From assembly GCA_930367215.1 (NCBI GenBank), contig OV884059.1:28544945-28608944 (forward strand): DNA of 64,000 bases, written 5' to 3'. Shown here piece by piece: positions 2,000-56,534 of this stretch (position 1 is its first letter; the number at the start of each line of letters is the position of its first letter). The notes below the pieces were generated by a model that was not told the origin of the DNA, ran no database searches, and was given only the letters and a program-made list of their open reading frames with translations. The DNA is from Pollenia angustigena (taxonomy: Eukaryota > Arthropoda > Insecta > Diptera > Polleniidae). Made by a program: the position numbers and the translations under genes.

Positions 2000-4260
2000 C
2001 ACAACGAGAGGATCATTTATGATCGAAAAATTAACTTATATGCGGTTCTTTTGTTCGTTTGGCTGATCTGGTAGGAGATTCGATTATGATACAAAATGCT
2101 AGCTGGCTGTACTGAAAAACTGCTACGCATAAATTAAATAATTTAAGGAAATATTTCTTTTAAATAGCCTTGATATTCATCTTGTAGAAGCTTTTTAGCT
2201 TCTCGGTCTAATTCACAAAGGTAGTTTTCCATTTTTGTCAAATATTGGTCACATATGGATTTGCAGTGCATAGGAAAATAGTGATAAAAAGGTCTTCATT
2301 AGTACTAAATCTGGACAGTTTTCCATTGCTGCCCTGTCTGCATTAGCTTTTCGTCTTATCGATTTCGAAACGCAAGCCCCTAATTTTGGATGATCTTAAA
2401 AAAAGGGAGAAAGTAGACGATACCGAGCTCAAAATGGGGCAAAAACTAAAAAAATTTTAAAAATAATACACCATAGCTTTAACAGAGTTTAGTTTTATTT
2501 TCCGAGATTTTTTTTCTACAATTCTTACCCCCTATCTCCATTCCTTAAGGGGGCTCCCATACAAAGTTAGAAATTTTATCGAAATTAACCGACAACACTT
2601 CATTTTTCATCCCTAACATTTGTTTCTAACGTACCAACCGGCTATTTCCATTCTTTAAGGTGTTTCCATACGAAATTTATAATACAGACAATATATATTT
2701 TGAAGAAAAAGTCTCATGACTGCCTAAGAATCCCCCTAGGAGTAAAAAAAAAATCTCCTTGGGGGATAAAATGGACGACCGACATCCATTAGTTTTTTGT
2801 CCTAAACATTTTCTGAAAACATACTTGCTCCCTATCTCCAGCCCTTCGGGGGACTCCTTCAGGCAGAACCTGGCGGATGTACAATGGGGTATATGGTTGA
2901 AGTTAAAGGAGGATTCGGTCTAAAAAATGGTGCAAGATTTCGTTGACTGATTTTGGCGGAAAGCAAAATACAGATATATGTAATCCGTTTTGGATAACCC
3001 TATTCGCTGTGAAATAGTTAGAACAGAGCTGTAAATATTTTGGATCTCGAAGTTCACTGGTACTTACTTTCAAATGAGTGACGTAACTTTAAAATCGGTG
3101 CCCATTAAAATAAATGTTAGCCGCCTTCAATATATCCACAGTTTTTAATAGCTGTTACCAAAAATCTGATTTGGCATACGAAATTAGAACTAAATGGCCA
3201 CTATTAACTGCCAACATAAAACTACTCCTTAAAAAAAAATCTAGAAGAAAGAAAACCTAAAAAGTTTTAAGTCATAAAAAGAATTAACTTGTCTTAAAAA
3301 CTACAAAAACATTTTTCATTTTTCAATGTGAAAAATCAACATACACACAGCCTTGTTAATGGCAAAAGTACATAAAGAAGCTTAAAGCTTTTTATCCCTA
3401 CAGATCCGAAATACACTTGCGAACATGTATGTGCACAAAACTCCCTGCTCCCACTCCAACTGTTGGCATTTCGTATTGCACATTCAGGTGCAAAATAAAT
3501 CGTAGTTTTATTGCATTAAATGCATAGTGGAAATTTTGTAAATTTTTGACCGATTAAAATGGCTTCCAGGCAATTTACCAACAAACAATGATGAATGAAG
3601 CATCATAAAATATGAAAGTGAACGCGTCGATGCCGCTTCAATACCTTCTGTTCTGTTCAAAAATAATAAAAAAAAAGAAAGTTTGAAAAAATTTTGTTTT
3701 GATTTCTGTTGCACAAAAATTTTGTGAACACACGTCAAATTTACAATTGCTATTTTTAATAAAAAAAAAAAAAAAATAAATAAATAAACTTGCAAACATA
3801 CATACACATGATTGTGTGTAAATCGTACTATGTTTGTACTATATTTTTATGTATGTGTATTTATTTGTTATATTTACAAGTATTTAGGCGATTAATCCAT
3901 TGTGCAGTTATTTTAATTTTTCCCCAACGTTTTTTTATTTTTTCAAAAATATAAAAAATATTGTTTTGTTTTAAATTTTTCGGTTGTTGGTGGCTGATGT
4001 TTTGTTTTTCCTATAAAACCCATTTTAGATTTGGAGGCAATCTATTGAATTGTGAATATTTAAAGATGTAAAACAATTTGAAATTTAAATCGAAAGCGTG
4101 TTGAAGTGAAAGGAATGTATATTCAATTAACTTTCTCGCTTAAACAAAGACCAACTTTTTTTTTATAAAACTAAATACATAAACATACATTTTATTTCAT
4201 GTTTTATTAATATTAAAAAAAATCAAGCTTTACTTAATTTATAAGTAAATTTGTAAATAA
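2000..4260. other. Non-coding, repeat-like AT-rich stretch
   Basis: A loosely repeated motif (CCCCTATCTCC, then CCTT, then a G run) occurs near 2530, 2640 and 2830, and a similar motif is near 20030, which suggests remnants of one interspersed repeat. Apart from a short minus-strand open stretch (listed separately) nothing looks coding. Confidence 0.45.
2140..2290 (-). pseudogene. Short minus-strand open stretch, unknown remnant
   Basis: About 49 codons are open between two stops, ending at TAA near 2140. The peptide is unlike the poly-Phe/Lys/Asn translations around it: it has a Cys/His-containing start (PMHCKSICDQ) and an amphipathic charged helix (CELDREAKKLLQDEYQGYL). I do not recognise the family. 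It may be the 3' end of a dead transposase or simply chance. Confidence 0.2.
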
Positions 4261-6388: not shown

Positions 6389-8205
6389 TATTTTTATTTA
6401 TTTATTTATTTATTTGTCTATGGAATATAATCCTTACAGACTTCTTAATTAAATAAAAATAAATTTTACAAAACATATATATATGTGAAAAAAAAACTTA
6501 CAAAAATTATGTGTTTAAAAAGATTAATAATTTAGTTTTAATATCAGTGGGACTAGAAGAATAGTCAATAAATTTTTAAAACTTGTTGAACTCAATACAC
6601 ATCCTTCTTAACGGGTCACTATTAGCATAATTAGCTCTTAAAAATTGAACTGATAACGGAACCAAATGACGTGATGGGCGTTGAGGGACATTAATTGTTA
6701 TGTTATTGATTAGGCATCCAGAGCATACGTCGCCAACAATTATGTTAAAAATAAACGAGATGTTCATCACAGTTCTACGGCTCTTTAGAGTTGGCAGCTT
6801 GATAAGGGCTAGTCTTGCAGAATAAGACGGCATATTCCATTGGTTAAAGTTCAACCCACGCAGACAAAAGTCAGAAACTGTTTTTGGACTGATTCAATTT
6901 GGTCGGAATATTTACTATATATAGGGTCCCATATTACAGATCCATACTCCAATACAGGTCTTACAAGGGAAGTATACAAACTTTTCGTAACATATGGATC
7001 CTTGAACTCTTTAGCCCATCGTTTTACAAAACCGATCATACCTCTGCCTTTATTAGCTGTCATTGTTATGTGTGCGATGAAATTTAGTTTTGAGTCAAGC
7101 AGAATTCCAAGATCTAAGAAATTATCCACCGACTCCAACTGATACCTTTCAAAAAAGTAGCATGCAGGTATTGGACTCTTTCTAACAAAACGCATGTATT
7201 TACATTTATTTAGATTAAGTTGCAAAAGATTCACATTGCACTACGTGTAAAAAGAATTTAAGTCGTTTTGAAGAAGTTGTTGCTCAAATATTTGACGATA
7301 GCTGAGAAAAACATTCACGTCGTCCGCATACATCAGAATATTGGATGAATGAATCACCTCAGGTAGGTCATTAATAAACAATGTAAAAAGAAGTGGCCCA
7401 AGGTGGCTTCCCTGAGGTACACCAGACAGAACTTCTATGCTTCTAGAAATTGTGTTATTAAAGCAAATCGTTTGTGTTCTGTTTCTTAGGTATGAATATA
7501 TCCATTTTATACTTATATCAGTAAAACCGAGTAAATTATTCAATTTCAAAAGTCTATGGTTAACTTTATCAAAGGCCTTGGTAAAATCAGTGTATATCAC
7601 ATCAGTTTGCAGTTGATGAATAAATCCTCGATGTATGACAGTTGTAAGATGAAGGAGATTAGTTGTAGTAGAACATCTTTTCTGAAACCCATGCTGGTAA
7701 GGTGAAATCAAATTAGATACTTGGTAACAAAGAATTTTGGTGACAATTTTTTCCAATAGTTTAGGTATAATACTCAATTTTGCAATACCACGGTAATTTT
7801 CAACCTCAGATTTATTTCCCGATTTAAACAAAGGTATAATAAACGAGTTCTTCCATAGATCCGGAAAGTGACCGTGCTTGATCGATACATTAAATAAAAT
7901 TGTTAGAGGGATAGCAATACTATCAGCACAGTTAATTAAAATGTTACTTGGAATATTATCAGGACCAGAATTGAATGAGAATTTAAGACTTTTTAATTCC
8001 TTTGCGATTGTTGCGATATCAATAAATGGAATGTGAGTTGTTTGGTTCGAATTTATCTTGAAGGGATAATTTACAGATTCGTCATAAAAAGCATTCGAAT
8101 AAGTTGTAGAGAAAAAATCGGCAAACCAATTACTTATTGTGCCATTATCACTGAGAGTATTTGTTGTCACCCCCTTCCTTTGTTTTTTGTATTACTATGG
8201 AAATT
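6389..8205 (-). mobile_element. 5'-truncated LINE (non-LTR retrotransposon)
   Basis: On the minus strand the order is reverse transcriptase, carboxy-terminal domain, 3' UTR, then an (AAAT)n tail at about 6391-6417 (plus-strand TTTATTTATTTATT). ORF1 and the endonuclease are absent, which is the usual 5' truncation of LINE copies. I could not find matching target duplications. Interrupted reading frames show it is inactive. Confidence 0.85.
6576..8170 (-). pseudogene. LINE reverse transcriptase, interrupted
   Basis: This encodes the polymerase that copies LINE RNA into DNA at a nicked target. Reading from 8170 leftward, the fingers region has NSGPDNIPSNIL; then follow YQHGF (box 2), the first catalytic Asp in YTDFTKAFDKVNH, SGVPQGSHLGPLLF, and the catalytic Asp pair in MYADDVNVF. 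After residue 309 an in-frame TAG at 7241-7243 breaks the frame, but the same frame continues to 6851 with the thumb and carboxy-terminal segment (NLNKCKYMRF, then LGILLDSKLNF, then LVRPVLEYGSVIWDP). Near 6854 a frameshift moves it into a third segment ending at 6576. The catalytic motifs are intact, so the loss looks fairly recent. It resembles jockey/CR1-type LINEs; the exact clade is uncertain. Endonuclease and zinc-knuckle parts are not present. Confidence 0.88.
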
Positions 8206-26326: not shown

Positions 26327-26750
26327 ATTGTTGTATTTTTTTTTAAATTGTTGTAAAGAGTTTTATTTAACAACTATTTCAGTTTAAAAAAAAAAAAAAA
26401 AACACCAGTAGCTTCCCTTAACTCGGTTTTTTCACTTCTACAGCTGTTTCTTCTTTAACGGTTCAATACAGTATAAAACCAAATAATGCATTCAATATAA
26501 CCGCCGCTTTCGGGGATGGAATATTATCGTGTTTTTCTGATATTAATTGGATTTAAATTGCCCGATTTAATAGCTCTAAACTTAATTTTTTTTTGGAGCT
26601 ACCTAAAGCATAAGGTCGTCTATGCCCAAAAGCCAAGAATCATCCAATAACTTAAGGCCAACTTCTAAGACGAAATTAAGTCGCTGGGATCTAAAACTTT
26701 TTGAAATATTATGGTAAATGCTCTAGAAAGAGCTCGTCAGGCATTATTTT
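26327..26750. other. Upstream flank of the heat-shock pseudogene
   Basis: Contains an A-run at 26384-26402 and AT-rich DNA. A regular alternating TTC/GAA heat-shock element is not evident. Nothing else is recognised. Confidence 0.4.
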
Positions 26751-39052: not shown

Positions 39053-39884
39053 CACTGATAGAAAAAGCGTCATAACGCTGATGTATTTTGACATCAGTAC
39101 TATGACAAATGTCTTCGTTGTTGACTCATGACACTTATCATCATTGTGATGCCAGCCCTGACATCACTTGGCCCAACTGGCATCAGGGTCAAAAATTAAA
39201 ATTGTGTCATCAATGGGATGACACATCCAGAATCACAGAAATGACGAATTGGAGTCAGTTTTATAAAACATGTCATCAGTGCAATGACACAGTAACATCG
39301 AAAAAAGAACCCATTAGCAAATGACGAATTGGAGTCAATTTTATAAAATATGTCATCAGTGCGATGACACAGCAACTTCGGAGAAAGAAATCATTAGCAT
39401 AAATTAAATGACAAACTTCATTAAATTGAGGGAAAGGCTTAAGTCAAAGTGGGAGAGTATTATTATTTACTTAAACGTTTCACATGTTTGTTTCACTTGA
39501 GTTGTATTCCGCCATTTTTTTACTGAAGAACTCTCAATAATACGACACCAGAAGAATGTCGAATTAGGTTTTCGTAATCATTCTACATTGAAAATTTATG
39601 TAGTTAACAAAACTAATTTAAACAAATAGAATGTGGGAATTTTTGCTTCTTATTTTACACTTTAAACATAAAAATAATGTTAATAATACGCAAAATGTGG
39701 CATCGAATTGATGTCACTATAGTTATAGTATAGATGACGCGTAAAATATGACAAAATTGTATGATGACGTTCCTCATTGGATTAATGTCACGTTTTGACA
39801 CATTGATGCCATTTGTAATAACATTGATGTCACAATTCTGATGTAAGGGCATCATTAATATGAAAATTCATTTTTTTATCAGTG
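39053..39884. mobile_element. 832-bp element, CACTGATAGAAAAA ends
   Basis: CACTGATAGAAAAAGCGTCA at 39053 and TGAATTTTTTTATCAGTG-type right end at 39884 are inverted; both flanks read CA. Direct repeats of an 80-bp block lie at 39241-39400 (ATGACGAATTGGAGTCA twice). TGATGTCA/TGACATCA words are abundant. 39440-39670 is a core also present in other elements. A reverse partial copy is at about 55175-55535 and an end fragment at 52947. Confidence 0.75.
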
Positions 39885-41463: not shown

Positions 41464-41819
41464 TAAAAGACCTAACGAACAGTTTGCGTAATATGCAACA
41501 TAGTGAATTATCAAAACAGCTGGTAGGTTTTACAAGAAAACTAAATTATAAACAGTTTTGGGCGACTTATAATTTTATCATTTTAAATAGTTTTTTGTTT
41601 CTCCTGTAAAATTTTTAAAATAATGCGAAGACCGAAATTCGTAAAAGACCTAACGAACAGTTTGCGTAATATGCAACATAGTGAATTATCAAAAAAGCTG
41701 GTAGGTTTTACAAGAAAACTAAATTATAAACAAATTTGGGCGACTCATAATTTTATCATTTTAAATAGTTTTTTGTTTCTCCTGTAAAATTTTTAAAATA
41801 ATGCGAAGACCGAAATTCG
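41464..41819. repeat. Tandem duplication, two copies of 178 bp
   Basis: Copy 1 (41464-41641) and copy 2 (41642-41819) differ at only a few positions (for example AACAGTTTTGGGCGACTTAT against AACAAATTTGGGCGACTCAT). No coding function. The boundary falls at GTAAAAGACC/GTAGGTC. Confidence 0.95.
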
Positions 41820-41957
41820 TAGGTCATCATGAGCAGACGAACGAAGGATAAATCAGTACTGGGTGACCATGTTTGGTTTTAAGTTAAAAAGTTACTTTTA
41901 CTTTGATAATTGTATTTTTTTTATTTTTTAGTAATTGAAATAAAAATGCAAAGTAGT

Positions 41958-43863: not shown

Positions 43864-43972
43864 CAGGCCTGTCACAGACATCAATTCCGATCGAAAATGA
43901 TTTCGTTTTATGTGAAGCAAGATACGAAATCACTTCCACTTTCAATCGGAATTGATTTCTGTGACAGGCCTG
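43864..43972. mobile_element. 109-bp palindromic MITE, CAGGCCTGTCACAGA ends
   Basis: CAGGCCTGTCACAGACATCA with ATTCCGAT is mirrored by ATCGGAATTGATTTCTGTGA with CAGGCCTG. A partial second copy at 44061-44150 arises from the tandem duplication below. Confidence 0.82.
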
Positions 43973-44238
43973 GGGCCTAATTCTGGCAGTCGTGATCGAG
44001 TACTTTCTCGATTCCAAAGCAATTTTATTTCTAATTCTTTCAGTCGATACTGAATGAATCAATTCCGATCGAAAATGATTTCGTTTTATGTGAAGCAAGA
44101 TACGAAATCACTTCCACTTTCAATCGGAATTGATTTCTGTGACAGGCCTGGGGCCTAATTCTGGCAGTCGTGATCGAGTACTTTCTCGATTCCAAAGCAA
44201 TTTTATTTCTAATTCTTTCAGTCGATACTGAATGAATC
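43883..44238. repeat. Tandem duplication of 178 bp spanning two MITEs
   Basis: 43883-44060 and 44061-44238 are identical or nearly so by eye. The unit starts inside the CAGGCCTGTCACAGA palindrome and ends inside the CTGGCAGTCGTGATCGAG MITE, so it was duplicated after both were in place. Confidence 0.95.
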
Positions 44239-53095: not shown

Positions 53096-53494
53096 CTTGC
53101 TATCTACCTTGTGCAAAAAAAGTTAAAGTTCACAAATCAACCCAAGCGATAAATATTGTAAGGACCCCAAGTGGCAGGCCTTTTTGAAGGCCTCTATACT
53201 CCTTTTTAAAAGATTCGCTTCCTATGATATTCTGCCTTCAGAAATATTTCTTATAGAAGGTATAAATTTCTTTTTGAAAGAACTTCTAAAATATTTGGTA
53301 CACATTCGCTACTCCCTTCTTAAAGAAGGAAGAAATAAAGTTATTCAGTTTTTCAATATTTTTTAATTAGGCTTAAGTTCATCAAATTTAATTTTCATTA
53401 AATTATTTTTATGAAGAAAGGAATTTTACAACATGAAAATTAATTAAAATTGTTATTGATAATCTTTCATTCTTGACGTGACTAGGGGTTGAAC

Positions 53495-53555
53495 CGGCAG
53501 GTTACTATGACATGTTTCGATCGGAACCACTCGATCTCCTCAGATAGTTTTGCCG
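53495..53555 (-). ncRNA. Hammerhead ribozyme, type I, copy in inverted unit
   Basis: On the minus strand this is identical over 61 nt to the two plus-strand copies below, including the CTGAGGA and GAAA core boxes, stem II GATCG/CGATC and the stem I pairs. It would cleave only in transcripts of the minus strand. Confidence 0.88.
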
Positions 53556-54028
53556 TCTTACACTCGCAGCTATCGAAGGCTGCTGACGTCAGTAGTCAAA
53601 TATCAATCCTTAAACCAAATTTGTATTTTTAACACTTTCTTTTGGTAGATCGAAATTTGCTTTTTTTTTTTTACTGAATGATTATCCATTTTAATTGACT
53701 TTACATGTTTTTTCCTTACTTCTGTTTTTTCGTACTTTGTCAAGAATTTTTCTTGAAGTCCAAGTACATTTTTTTGTTTGTTTTATTTTTTCATTCTATC
53801 TTTCTCTTTTCTGTTGACCTTTTTTCAGCAAGAAAAATTCTTGACAAAGTACGAAAAAACAGAAGTAAGGAAAAAACATGTAAAGTCAATTAAAATGGAT
53901 AATCATTCAGTAAAAAAAAAAAAGCAAATTTCGATCTACCAAAAGAAAGTGTTAAAAATACAAATTTGGTTTAAGGATTGATATTTGACTACTGACGTCA
54001 GCAGCCTTCGATAGCTGCGAGTGTAAGA

Positions 54029-54089
54029 CGGCAAAACTATCTGAGGAGATCGAGTGGTTCCGATCGAAACATGTCATAGTAACCTGCCG
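54029..54089 (+). ncRNA. Hammerhead ribozyme, type I, direct copy 1
   Basis: The core CTGAGGA (54041-54047) is followed by stem II GATCG/CGATC with an 8-nt loop, then GAAA (54066-54069), a minimal stem III within the ACATGT palindrome, and the predicted cut after C54075 of GTC. Stem I pairs ACTAT with ATAGT and, past an internal loop, CGGCA with TGCCG. Confidence 0.9.
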
Positions 54090-54612
54090 GTTCAACCCCT
54101 AGTCACGTCAAGAATGAAAGATTATCAATAACAATTTTAATTAATTTTCATGTTGTAAAATTCCTTTCTTCATAAAAATAATTTAATGAAAATTAAATTT
54201 GATGAACTTAAGCCTAATTAAAAAATATTGAAAAATTTGGATTAAAAACCATAAATAGTTCAACAAAATAACCACAATACTAGTTATTGTTAAAGCTAAG
54301 GCACGAGCTCTATGTTTACATTTGTCCTTCAAGTTGTGCTGAAAAAAGGTCAACAGAAAAGAGAAAGATAGAATGAAAAAATAAAACAAACAAAAAAAAT
54401 GTACTTGGACTTCAAGAAAAATTCTTGACAAAGTACGAAAAAACAGAAGTAAGGAAAAAACATGTAAAGTCAATTAAAATGGATAATCATTCAGTAAAAA
54501 AAAAAAAGCAAATTTCGATCTACCAAAAGAAAGTGTTAAAAATACAAATTTGGTTTAAGGATTGATATTTGACTACTGACGTCAGCAGCCTTCGATAGCT
54601 GCGAGTGTAAGA

Positions 54613-54673
54613 CGGCAAAACTATCTGAGGAGATCGAGTGGTTCCGATCGAAACATGTCATAGTAACCTGCCG
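54613..54673 (+). ncRNA. Hammerhead ribozyme, type I, direct copy 2
   Basis: Stem I outer CGGCA (54613-54617) pairs with TGCCG (54669-54673); inner ACTAT (54620-54624) pairs with ATAGT (54660-54664). The core is CTGAGGA (54625-54631). Stem II is GATCG (54632-54636) with CGATC (54645-54649) and loop AGTGGTTC. GAAA is at 54650-54653. Stem III is A-C/G-T with only two loop bases, but ACATGT (54653-54658) is self-complementary, as in dimer-acting minimal hammerheads of Penelope-like elements and newt satellite 2. The cleavage site is GTC, after C54659. Every invariant core position is present. Upstream at 54584-54602 is a second hairpin, GCAGC/GCTGC. Confidence 0.92.
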
Positions 54674-55174
54674 GTTCAACCCCTAGTCACGTCAAGAATG
54701 AAAGATTATCAATAACAATTTTAATTAATTTTCATGTTGTAAAATTCCTTTCTTCATAAAAATAATTTAATGAAAATTAAATTTGATGAACTTAAGCCTA
54801 ATTAAAAAATATTGAAAAATTTGGATTAAAAACCATAAATAGTTCAACAAAATAACCACAATACTAATTATTGTTATTCAGTTTTATTTATTTTTTATTT
54901 TCGGTGACCTTTCTTGCTCCCTTCTTTGGGAAGAAATCGAATTTGATATTAAACGGAGTGTAGAAGGACTTGCTCCCAATGACAACCTGTGTAAAAAATT
55001 AATAAGTATGGAAAGCGACGAGAAGGGCTTGTGACTGCTAAATATGGCCTTATATTAGGCCTCTTTACTCATTCTAGTTACCGCTGGGACACATAAAGCC
55101 CAGCAGAAGTCAATGGGTTTCTATGTGTTGGTTAACTTATGTAAACTTTACCTTTTTTTTTTGCATTAGAGGGT

Positions 55175-55539: not shown

Positions 55540-56534
55540 AATAACATATTTGACTTATTATATTTGAGGCTATCAGCGCAGAAGTGGTGCAACCCCAGAC
55601 TACTTATTATGAGATAATGAGGAGTTAACACTACTCTTGCACTATAGTAGTTGGTTGTAACGGCCCGTGCAAAAACTATGTTTCTAGCGCCATCTGTTTT
55701 GGACACAAACAGTTGGCTTATTCGACTATTGCACTGTAAAGAACAGTGCAAAGAACATAACTAACACCAGAACCGTAACCAAATTGAATTGTGGGTTATA
55801 CCACTTCTGCGCTGATAGTGTTAAACATATCCTGACCTTAAATGGAAATGAATGAACTTAACAAACATTTGAAAGCGTGTTTTAATTGATTACATAAGGA
55901 AACAAGGCTTTTGTTGATTAAGAACTGAATGTTGTTTTTAAGGTTATTTGGGACGCTGAATCCAAATCTGCACTGAATTTTTTTTCTATCCACTCGACTT
56001 TTTGCGATACACAGTTATGTCCAAAATTAAGGCACTTCCGCTACGTATATTGGAATAACTTGAAAACAGTTCACCATATTCTGTTAGAAAAAAATTCAAA
56101 ATTCGGCAACAATATTATCTTGAAGCCGTGCTTACATTGGTTTTTAATTTGCCTAGTAGCTTCAGAGATATCGTTGAAGTTCAAAAAAAATAAAAATGCA
56201 ACAAAAATTTGTTTTGGTCTAAAAACATTAAGTTAAACATATTTCGAATGAAATGAACTTTATTTCATTGTAAGCGGTGTACAACTTCTGATTTTATTCT
56301 CAATTTACTGAGAAATTTGAATTGATAAAAAACGCGATTTCCATACAAAAATAAAATTTTATCAGTAAATTTTAATAAAAATTCCAAGTTGTAAAATTCC
56401 TTCCCTCAGTGAAAATAATTTAATGAACATTAAATTTGATGAACTCAAGCCTAATTAAAGAATATCAAAAATTTTTTTTTGTTCTCTTAAAAATTAGATA
56501 CTTTCACTTAATTATAAATAAAATCGAAACGTCC
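55540..56534. other. Non-coding DNA with one shared module
   Basis: 56386-56475 (GTTGTAAAATTCCTT, AATAATTTAATGAACATTAA, GATGAACTCAAGCCTAATTA) is another copy of the A/T-rich module found in the ribozyme units. An inverted pair around GTAGTCTGGGGTTGCACCACTTCTGCGCTGATAG-like words lies at 55571-55600 and 55795-55820 (TATACCACTTCTGCGCTGAT against ATCAGCGCAGAAGTGG). No gene. Confidence 0.5.

Follow-up and report, generated by a model that had tools for sequence, protein, structure and literature searches.

Which enzyme mobilises the retrozymes of animals is left open in the literature, where shared hammerheads, tandem copies and co-occurrence make Penelope a strong candidate (PMC7229834; PMC7761336). 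In vitro, the Penelope protein of the anole cuts both strands of the target and extends them, with starts at two adjacent internal positions of its RNA that lie most often in an AC-rich stem-loop (PMC11167929). The optional Penelope tail is the stretch between the two start sites, and internal, non-homologous starts of this type are reported there as unseen with other retrotransposons. In the same assay the start site was the same for both strands, and mutation of the hammerhead did not prevent insertion; the ribozyme may therefore act in RNA processing and not in insertion. Genomic Penelope inserts typically show a pLTR in inverted orientation and a short target duplication, and may carry a 31-bp tail on one side; head-to-head is the commonest inverted arrangement, some copies are without parts of this signature, and self-priming has been proposed from palindromes at inverted junctions (PMC3846280). 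Minimal type I hammerheads without helix III, which may cleave as dimers, are described for Penelope-like elements [PLEs (PMC7761336)], and about 38,500 hammerhead candidates are given for Schistosoma mansoni (PMC2770079; PMC8490949).

The window analysed here (64,000 nucleotides of Pollenia angustigena DNA) contains a retrozyme-like element of this known general kind, in a variant distinguished by its long unit and by a B box next to the ribozyme. One complete insertion is delimited by unit mapping and a target-site duplication. The features are given below in window coordinates, with the near and far zones defined further on.

53340..53352, no strand: left target-site duplication GTTATTCAGTTTT, 13 bp, of which up to 4 nt also fit the unit
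53353..54872, no strand: one complete insertion, a minus arm and a plus arm head-to-head (unit mapping, target-site duplication)
53353..53830, minus strand: minus arm, about 0.8 unit, outer (3') end in the near zone at unit position about 160-164 (unit mapping)
53495..53555, minus strand: hammerhead copy 1, whose reverse complement equals copies 2 and 3 (sequence identity and copy-derived model)
53829..54872, plus strand: plus arm, about 1.8 units with a 584-bp period, outer (3') end in the far zone at about 217-221 (unit mapping)
54029..54089, plus strand: hammerhead copy 2 (sequence identity and copy-derived model)
54613..54673, plus strand: hammerhead copy 3, the motif under study (sequence reading, copy-derived model, covariation)
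54673..54683, plus strand: B-box-like GGTTCAACCCC bordering the hammerhead on its 3' side, with further copies at +54089-54099 and -53485-53495
54873..54885, no strand: right target-site duplication, the same 13 bp, perfect
56346..56474, plus strand: older piece of a related unit, covering unit positions about 46-171 at 85% to the T unit (unit mapping)

Copy 3 has the boxes CTGAGGA and GAAA, a GTC triplet with the cut predicted after C54659, a 5-bp stem II (GATCG/CGATC) and a two-part stem I made of an outer CGGCA/TGCCG and an inner ACTAT/ATAGT. All three 61-nt motifs in the window (+54613-54673, +54029-54089 and -53495-53555) are identical letter for letter, and the earlier note had placed and described them correctly in coordinates, boxes, stems and copies. 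It had also called the motif a complete type I hammerhead. Type I stands, on the strength of covariation and repeat context; 'complete' does not, because stem III consists of nothing beyond the self-complementary palindrome ACATGT. A single copy offers a stem III that is at best marginal and not the stable helix of a full type I hammerhead; the isolated duplex ACAUGU x ACAUGU has an energy of -4.6 kcal/mol, and its 6 bp need two copies. With stem III reduced to this palindrome the motif would probably cleave as a dimer, self-cleavage being here a prediction from the sequence. We file it as a minimal type I form, since type I forms lacking stem III are described for PLEs (PMC7761336).

The Rfam hammerhead matches that the earlier note had expected at the three sites are absent. 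No gathering match was obtained in the window or in eight loci, in scans made without a known hammerhead as positive control, and among the 13 matches at E ≤ 10 in 53200-55000 there is no hammerhead. The fold energy is ordinary (z = -0.81 for 61 nt, z = +1.17 for 111 nt). A model made from 14 copies gives 90.7 bits at all three sites, the next match in the window having 14.4 bits (E = 0.19); this result is circular, as the window copy is part of the training set. On nine loci the copy-derived model gives one of the Penelope hammerheads only 14.6 bits (E = 0.066). With Rfam null and the fold energy ordinary, the evidence for the motif rests on relatives within the same genome.

Copies were collected from 48 sequences (the window, 46 mapped loci and locus L017) with up to two core mismatches allowed. 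The collection has 144 copies in 38 distinct sequences; 134 have the exact core, with the CUGANGA and GAAA boxes and a GTC triplet, and the divergent L043 family has GTA, which also conforms to GUH. Covariation was counted on the 37 distinct sequences, some of them decayed, that remain of the 38 when a false match at window position 39241 is dropped. Stems I and II are kept as structure across these copies: 89.0% of the cells are paired, compared with 23-44% for slid structures used as a control, and nine of the 15 pairs are changed on both sides (51 such cells). None of 500 shuffles equalled the nine double-changed pairs, the 51 cells or the 89.0% pairing, and four of 500 equalled the number of pair types, in a test whose control for relatedness is imperfect. 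Covariation is concentrated in stem II (three pairs) and inner stem I (four pairs). Outer stem I is weaker, with its outermost pair non-standard in 19 of 37 copies, and the fifth pair of inner stem I is non-standard in 16 of the 20 copies that have letters there. A previous count, on 14 copies chosen by hand, agreed with this. The letters of inner stem I are CTAT/ATAG for the window copies, CCAT/ATGG for the C type, CCCT/AGGG for the T type, GATTT/AAATC for L052 and GATCTT/AAGATT for L043; stem II occurs as GATCG/CGATC, GATTG/CAATC, GATCA/TGATC and AGAAA/TTTCT. At least four subfamilies with compensated stems form a natural test set for the hammerhead.

The hammerhead core with ACATGTC is found at 26,553 places in the 1.37-Gb genome; the pattern CTGANGA..GAAACATGTC counts 13,367 + 13,186, and the same pattern read backwards 0 + 1. 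Like the shuffles, these counts place the motif beyond chance. A type I hammerhead within a mobile repeat is well supported by the covariation and the repeat context. At about 565 bp per core the repeat makes up some 15 Mb or 1.1% of the genome, an estimate that counts exact cores alone and assumes a full unit for each. The subfamily of the window has 756 exact cores in the genome, and the L043 family has 1,591 places within three mismatches. Between arrays of one subfamily the difference is 1.30% (T), 0.81% (C) or 0.15% (W), and the repeat is still young as well as a very abundant mobile element.

The unit, repeated head-to-tail in the arrays, is 561-584 bp long in the reference copies, reaches 620 bp with longer A tracts and measures 526 bp in the L043 family. 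Its GC content is 0.295-0.324 (0.315 for the whole window), and it is non-coding, with a longest open stretch of 96 aa. No open reading frame with reverse transcriptase and GIY-YIG is present in the unit, which is therefore not filed as a Penelope element. The L043 copy (2944-3970 of that locus) is 68.5% to the C and T units, has different stems and shows the order exact A box, ribozyme, B box. Elsewhere in the window (41464-41821 and 43880-44238) there are two 178-bp tandem duplications of different units, matching at 97% and 100%. One viral-contig scan found nothing.

The B box follows the ribozyme in all four subfamilies, which are related and not independent, and appears in 1-10 of 2000 shuffles (one of 2000 shuffled W units). 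In the L043 family the exact A box lies 76 nt upstream of the B box with the ribozyme between them, an A box being found in 65 of 2000 shuffles; the A box is imperfect in the T, C and W units, so that one of the four subfamilies has an exact one. Having a B box on one side and, in L043, an A box on the other, the ribozyme may be surrounded by a tRNA-like Pol III promoter. The loop II sequence AGTGG was considered as a Pol III A box and dropped, a better one lying upstream of the ribozyme in the L043 family. The boxes would suit a tRNA-derived SINE transcribed by Pol III and equipped with a hammerhead, like Sm-alpha of schistosomes, and hammerheads do occur in SINE-like Sm-alpha elements (PMC2770079). 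We nevertheless regard this account of transcription as doubtful: ARAGORN in six loci and Rfam recognise no tRNA, the A boxes of T, C and W are imperfect, and TTTT runs 60-80 nt past the cut site could stop Pol III before the start zones. It concerns transcription and is compatible with copying by Penelope.

Insertions in 46 loci and in part of the window were mapped on real units; the arrays used were the first 40 of the 46 in the core-search list. Of the 54 mapped insertions 32 are head-to-head, 11 plus-only, 11 minus-only and none tail-to-tail, so that orientation switches from minus to plus in 32 of 32 switching insertions. Among 300 places listed, which are the first of 26,553, 1,591 and 756 and not a random sample, 35 of 35 switches run from minus to plus and none from plus to minus. 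Target duplications of at least 10 nt lie near the ends of 24 of 37 insertions compared with 17 of 300 mismatched-flank pairs, and duplications of at least 12 nt in 18 of 37 compared with 1 of 300; among the 24, that of L057 sits 17-28 nt from the ends, and the 37 are what is left of the 54 after omission of 17 with an identity of 94% or less or a length of 300 bp or less.

Both flanks of a head-to-head insertion have the 3' side of the unit outermost, yet the ends are not at the ribozyme cut. Instead 51 of 54 outer ends (27 insertions) fall in one of two zones, the other three being at 264, 353 and 404. The far zone is tight, 207-222 nt after the cut, and lies at the AC-rich AACCACAATACTAAT; the near zone is broader, 119-199 nt after the cut, with clusters at 161-167 and 177. 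When head-to-head insertions are filtered (identity 93% or more, both ends within 100-230), 23 of 24 have one far and one near end, one is near-near and none is far-far; this count was equalled by 1 of 100,000 permutations, with the near/far boundary placed after the data had been seen. The filter removed five of the 32 for identity below 93% and then L012, L027 and L060 for an end outside 100-230; without the identity condition the count is 24 of 25. The insertion in the window follows the rule, near on the left and far on the right, and single-orientation insertions have a far-zone end in 9 of 11 cases. The earlier note had seen that copies lie on both strands, and had not recognised head-to-head insertions with two Penelope-like start zones.

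Head-to-head arms, two adjacent internal starts and a short duplication are the marks of a Penelope-like insertion, and all are found here. The insertion record is specific support for mobilisation by Penelope with priming on both strands. Since the two strands are alike in start site in the anole assay, the one-far-one-near rule is an addition to, or a difference from, what the available text of PMC11167929 describes.

Penelope is resident in the genome. The Pfam domains RVT_1 and GIY-YIG lie together on one open piece (L024), a Penelope N-terminal piece has 132 scored genome matches, 37 of them in open frames of more than 800 aa (manual count), and the minimal hammerhead of the resident Penelope has 183 + 200 exact matches. 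Among 100 of the latter listed, three pairs less than 1 kb apart are minus-to-plus and none is the reverse (by eye). In one Penelope family 4 of 4 copies examined end 107-113 nt after the start of the hammerhead, and in two other pairs one copy continues into a tail-like GGCCAAA stretch and its partner does not. Shared cis sequence between the unit and the Penelope families compared was not found; 49-65 of 200 shuffles equalled the local alignment scores, and on the units a Penelope tail-motif profile scored no better than on 659-1492 of 2000 shuffles, in a comparison that covered part of the families of the genome and, beyond L023, just one small 5' region. Among the BLAST matches listed, a weak one pairs the T unit with L019 over an AT-rich 52 nt (77%, E = 2e-4). 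A shared tail motif, TTA(A/G)GCC..ATTA, is rare in shuffles (1-2 of 2000) but was picked post hoc, and it is unsupported by a profile from five Penelope sequences alone; it was rejected. The hammerhead of another Penelope family (L067, C1:124819600-124820300, at about 150-195) reads TTGATAA where others read CTGAAGA, with C3 changed to U3 and G8 to A8, so that the pair would persist (one copy, by eye). In L017 (about 732-1213) a copy of the C-type hammerhead repeat lies inside a Penelope pLTR region.

The reading that we prefer, with a probability of about 0.62, is that the repeat is a retrozyme whose self-cut and probably circular RNA is copied by a Penelope reverse transcriptase, with each target strand supplying a primer; Penelope as the enzyme, the cleavage and the circularity are what we infer. 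Tandem DNA units would be transcribed, and the hammerhead would cut the transcript, most likely as a dimer, to unit-length RNA that is then probably circularised. A Penelope-type reverse transcriptase/GIY-YIG endonuclease would take up this RNA in trans, and the endonuclease would nick both strands of an AT-rich target some 10-19 bases apart. Reverse transcription would be primed from both nicks at two adjacent internal sites, the first about 207-222 nt past the cut, within the AC-rich 'tail', and the second typically 40-60 nt upstream. Each cDNA would follow the template along its length or around it, often for more than one lap, and end-joining or short overlaps would unite the pair, yielding head-to-head clonal arrays and short target duplications. 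The broader proposal that animal retrozymes owe their mobility to the Penelope reverse transcriptase, acting on a ribozyme-made RNA circle with one cDNA per nick and a far and a near start, has in our judgement an even chance of being right. If true, every insertion would be one RNA molecule copied head-to-head by rolling circle, and Penelope's own inverted pLTR and one-sided tail would be explained as well.

Twin priming is known for LINEs and would give the same polarity, and the window has a 309-aa open reading frame (7241-8170, minus strand) that by eye resembles a piece of LINE reverse transcriptase. LINE-mobilised repeats normally start at the 3' end of the RNA or in its tail. Two internal start zones that obey a one-far-one-near rule, and a head-to-head share of 32 in 54, make it unlikely that a LINE-type enzyme moves the retrozyme and produces its head-to-head arrays by twin priming; the non-homologous internal starts, which PMC11167929 reports as unseen with other retrotransposons, also speak against it.

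The junctions between arms bear on the origin of the inversion. Fold-back would give arms at mirror positions, and no excess of these is seen: 2 of 27 junctions lie within 20 nt of the mirror position, where 2.0 are expected. Two independent cDNAs joined by a few-base overlap or filler thus fit better than fold-back; arm overlaps of 41 and 57 nt (L051 and L039) are probably mapping ambiguity. In the window the junction falls at the palindrome-like CAAGAAAAATTCTTG, and its arms are 64 nt out of register. No substitution separates the units of one arm in 10 of 12 arrays, or the units of opposite arms in 5 of 6, when homopolymers are compressed and gaps ignored. Set against 0.15-1.30% between arrays, this near identity makes each array look like a clonal copy of one monomer, as an RNA circle would give and as a homogeneous linear multimer might also. 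In L012 and L013 the length of the A tract varies between units of one array (cores 576-620 bp apart) without substitutions, possibly by slippage at each lap of reverse transcription, or later.

A long linear multimer could indeed have been the template of a Penelope-type enzyme, with the inversion arising by self-priming of a cDNA or on antisense RNA and the hammerhead unneeded for insertion. Self-priming has precedent as a proposal for Penelope (PMC3846280), insertion by hammerhead mutants of anole Penelope was unchanged in vitro (PMC11167929), the window junction is palindrome-like, and a homogeneous array used as template could also yield clonal arrays, the contrast for W being small. We consider this quite unlikely all the same, as the predicted mirror junctions occur at the level of chance, two different outer starts are left unexplained, and the conserved, covarying stems argue that cleavage matters. 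A plain satellite amplified at the DNA level, with the hammerhead as a relic, would suit arrays of up to 14 cores among the places listed and is highly improbable in view of dispersed insertions with target duplications, end zones, a single polarity and covariation.

Under the preferred reading, copying of retrozyme RNA by Penelope, a family of more than 26,000 copies keeps a record of insertion ends, and the 54 mapped insertions fit Penelope's unusual start-site signature. The near/far rule and the unrelated junction positions provide a testable model of inverted Penelope inserts, for which self-priming has been proposed. The literature listings of one library contained neither a description of this repeat nor start-site evidence that Penelope moves retrozymes.

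Dolichopoda pDo500 and the newt satellites carry a hammerhead in tandem repeats, as does the Pollenia repeat, and the newt form works better as a dimer; unlike the Pollenia repeat, they are described as satellites. Sm-alpha and Sj-alpha of schistosomes are SINE-like repeats with a type I hammerhead (PMC2770079; PMC8490949); they differ in host, are compared here by description, and tRNA kinship is not demonstrated for the Pollenia repeat. With PLEs, as far as the available text of PMC11167929 and PMC3846280 goes, it shares head-to-head inserts, a one-sided tail, short duplications, internal starts and a minimal hammerhead with a short palindromic stem III, and it differs in a unit with neither an open reading frame nor supported sequence similarity and in its hammerhead stems and ACATGT palindrome. 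It also resembles the metazoan non-LTR retrozymes [PMC7229834 (Cervera and de la Pena, 2020)], which in the sections available have a type I hammerhead, low-GC tandem repeats, no LTR features, target duplications of more than 4 bp and, in some (amphibians), a weak stem III. The Pollenia repeat has the tandem non-coding repeats, the type I hammerhead, the low GC and the duplications of over 4 bp of a retrozyme, and we name it retrozyme-like because its unit measures 526-620 bp and theirs 150-450 bp. The sections available on metazoan retrozymes mention no B box by the ribozyme, no pair of end zones and no arrays arranged head-to-head, all of which the Pollenia repeat shows.
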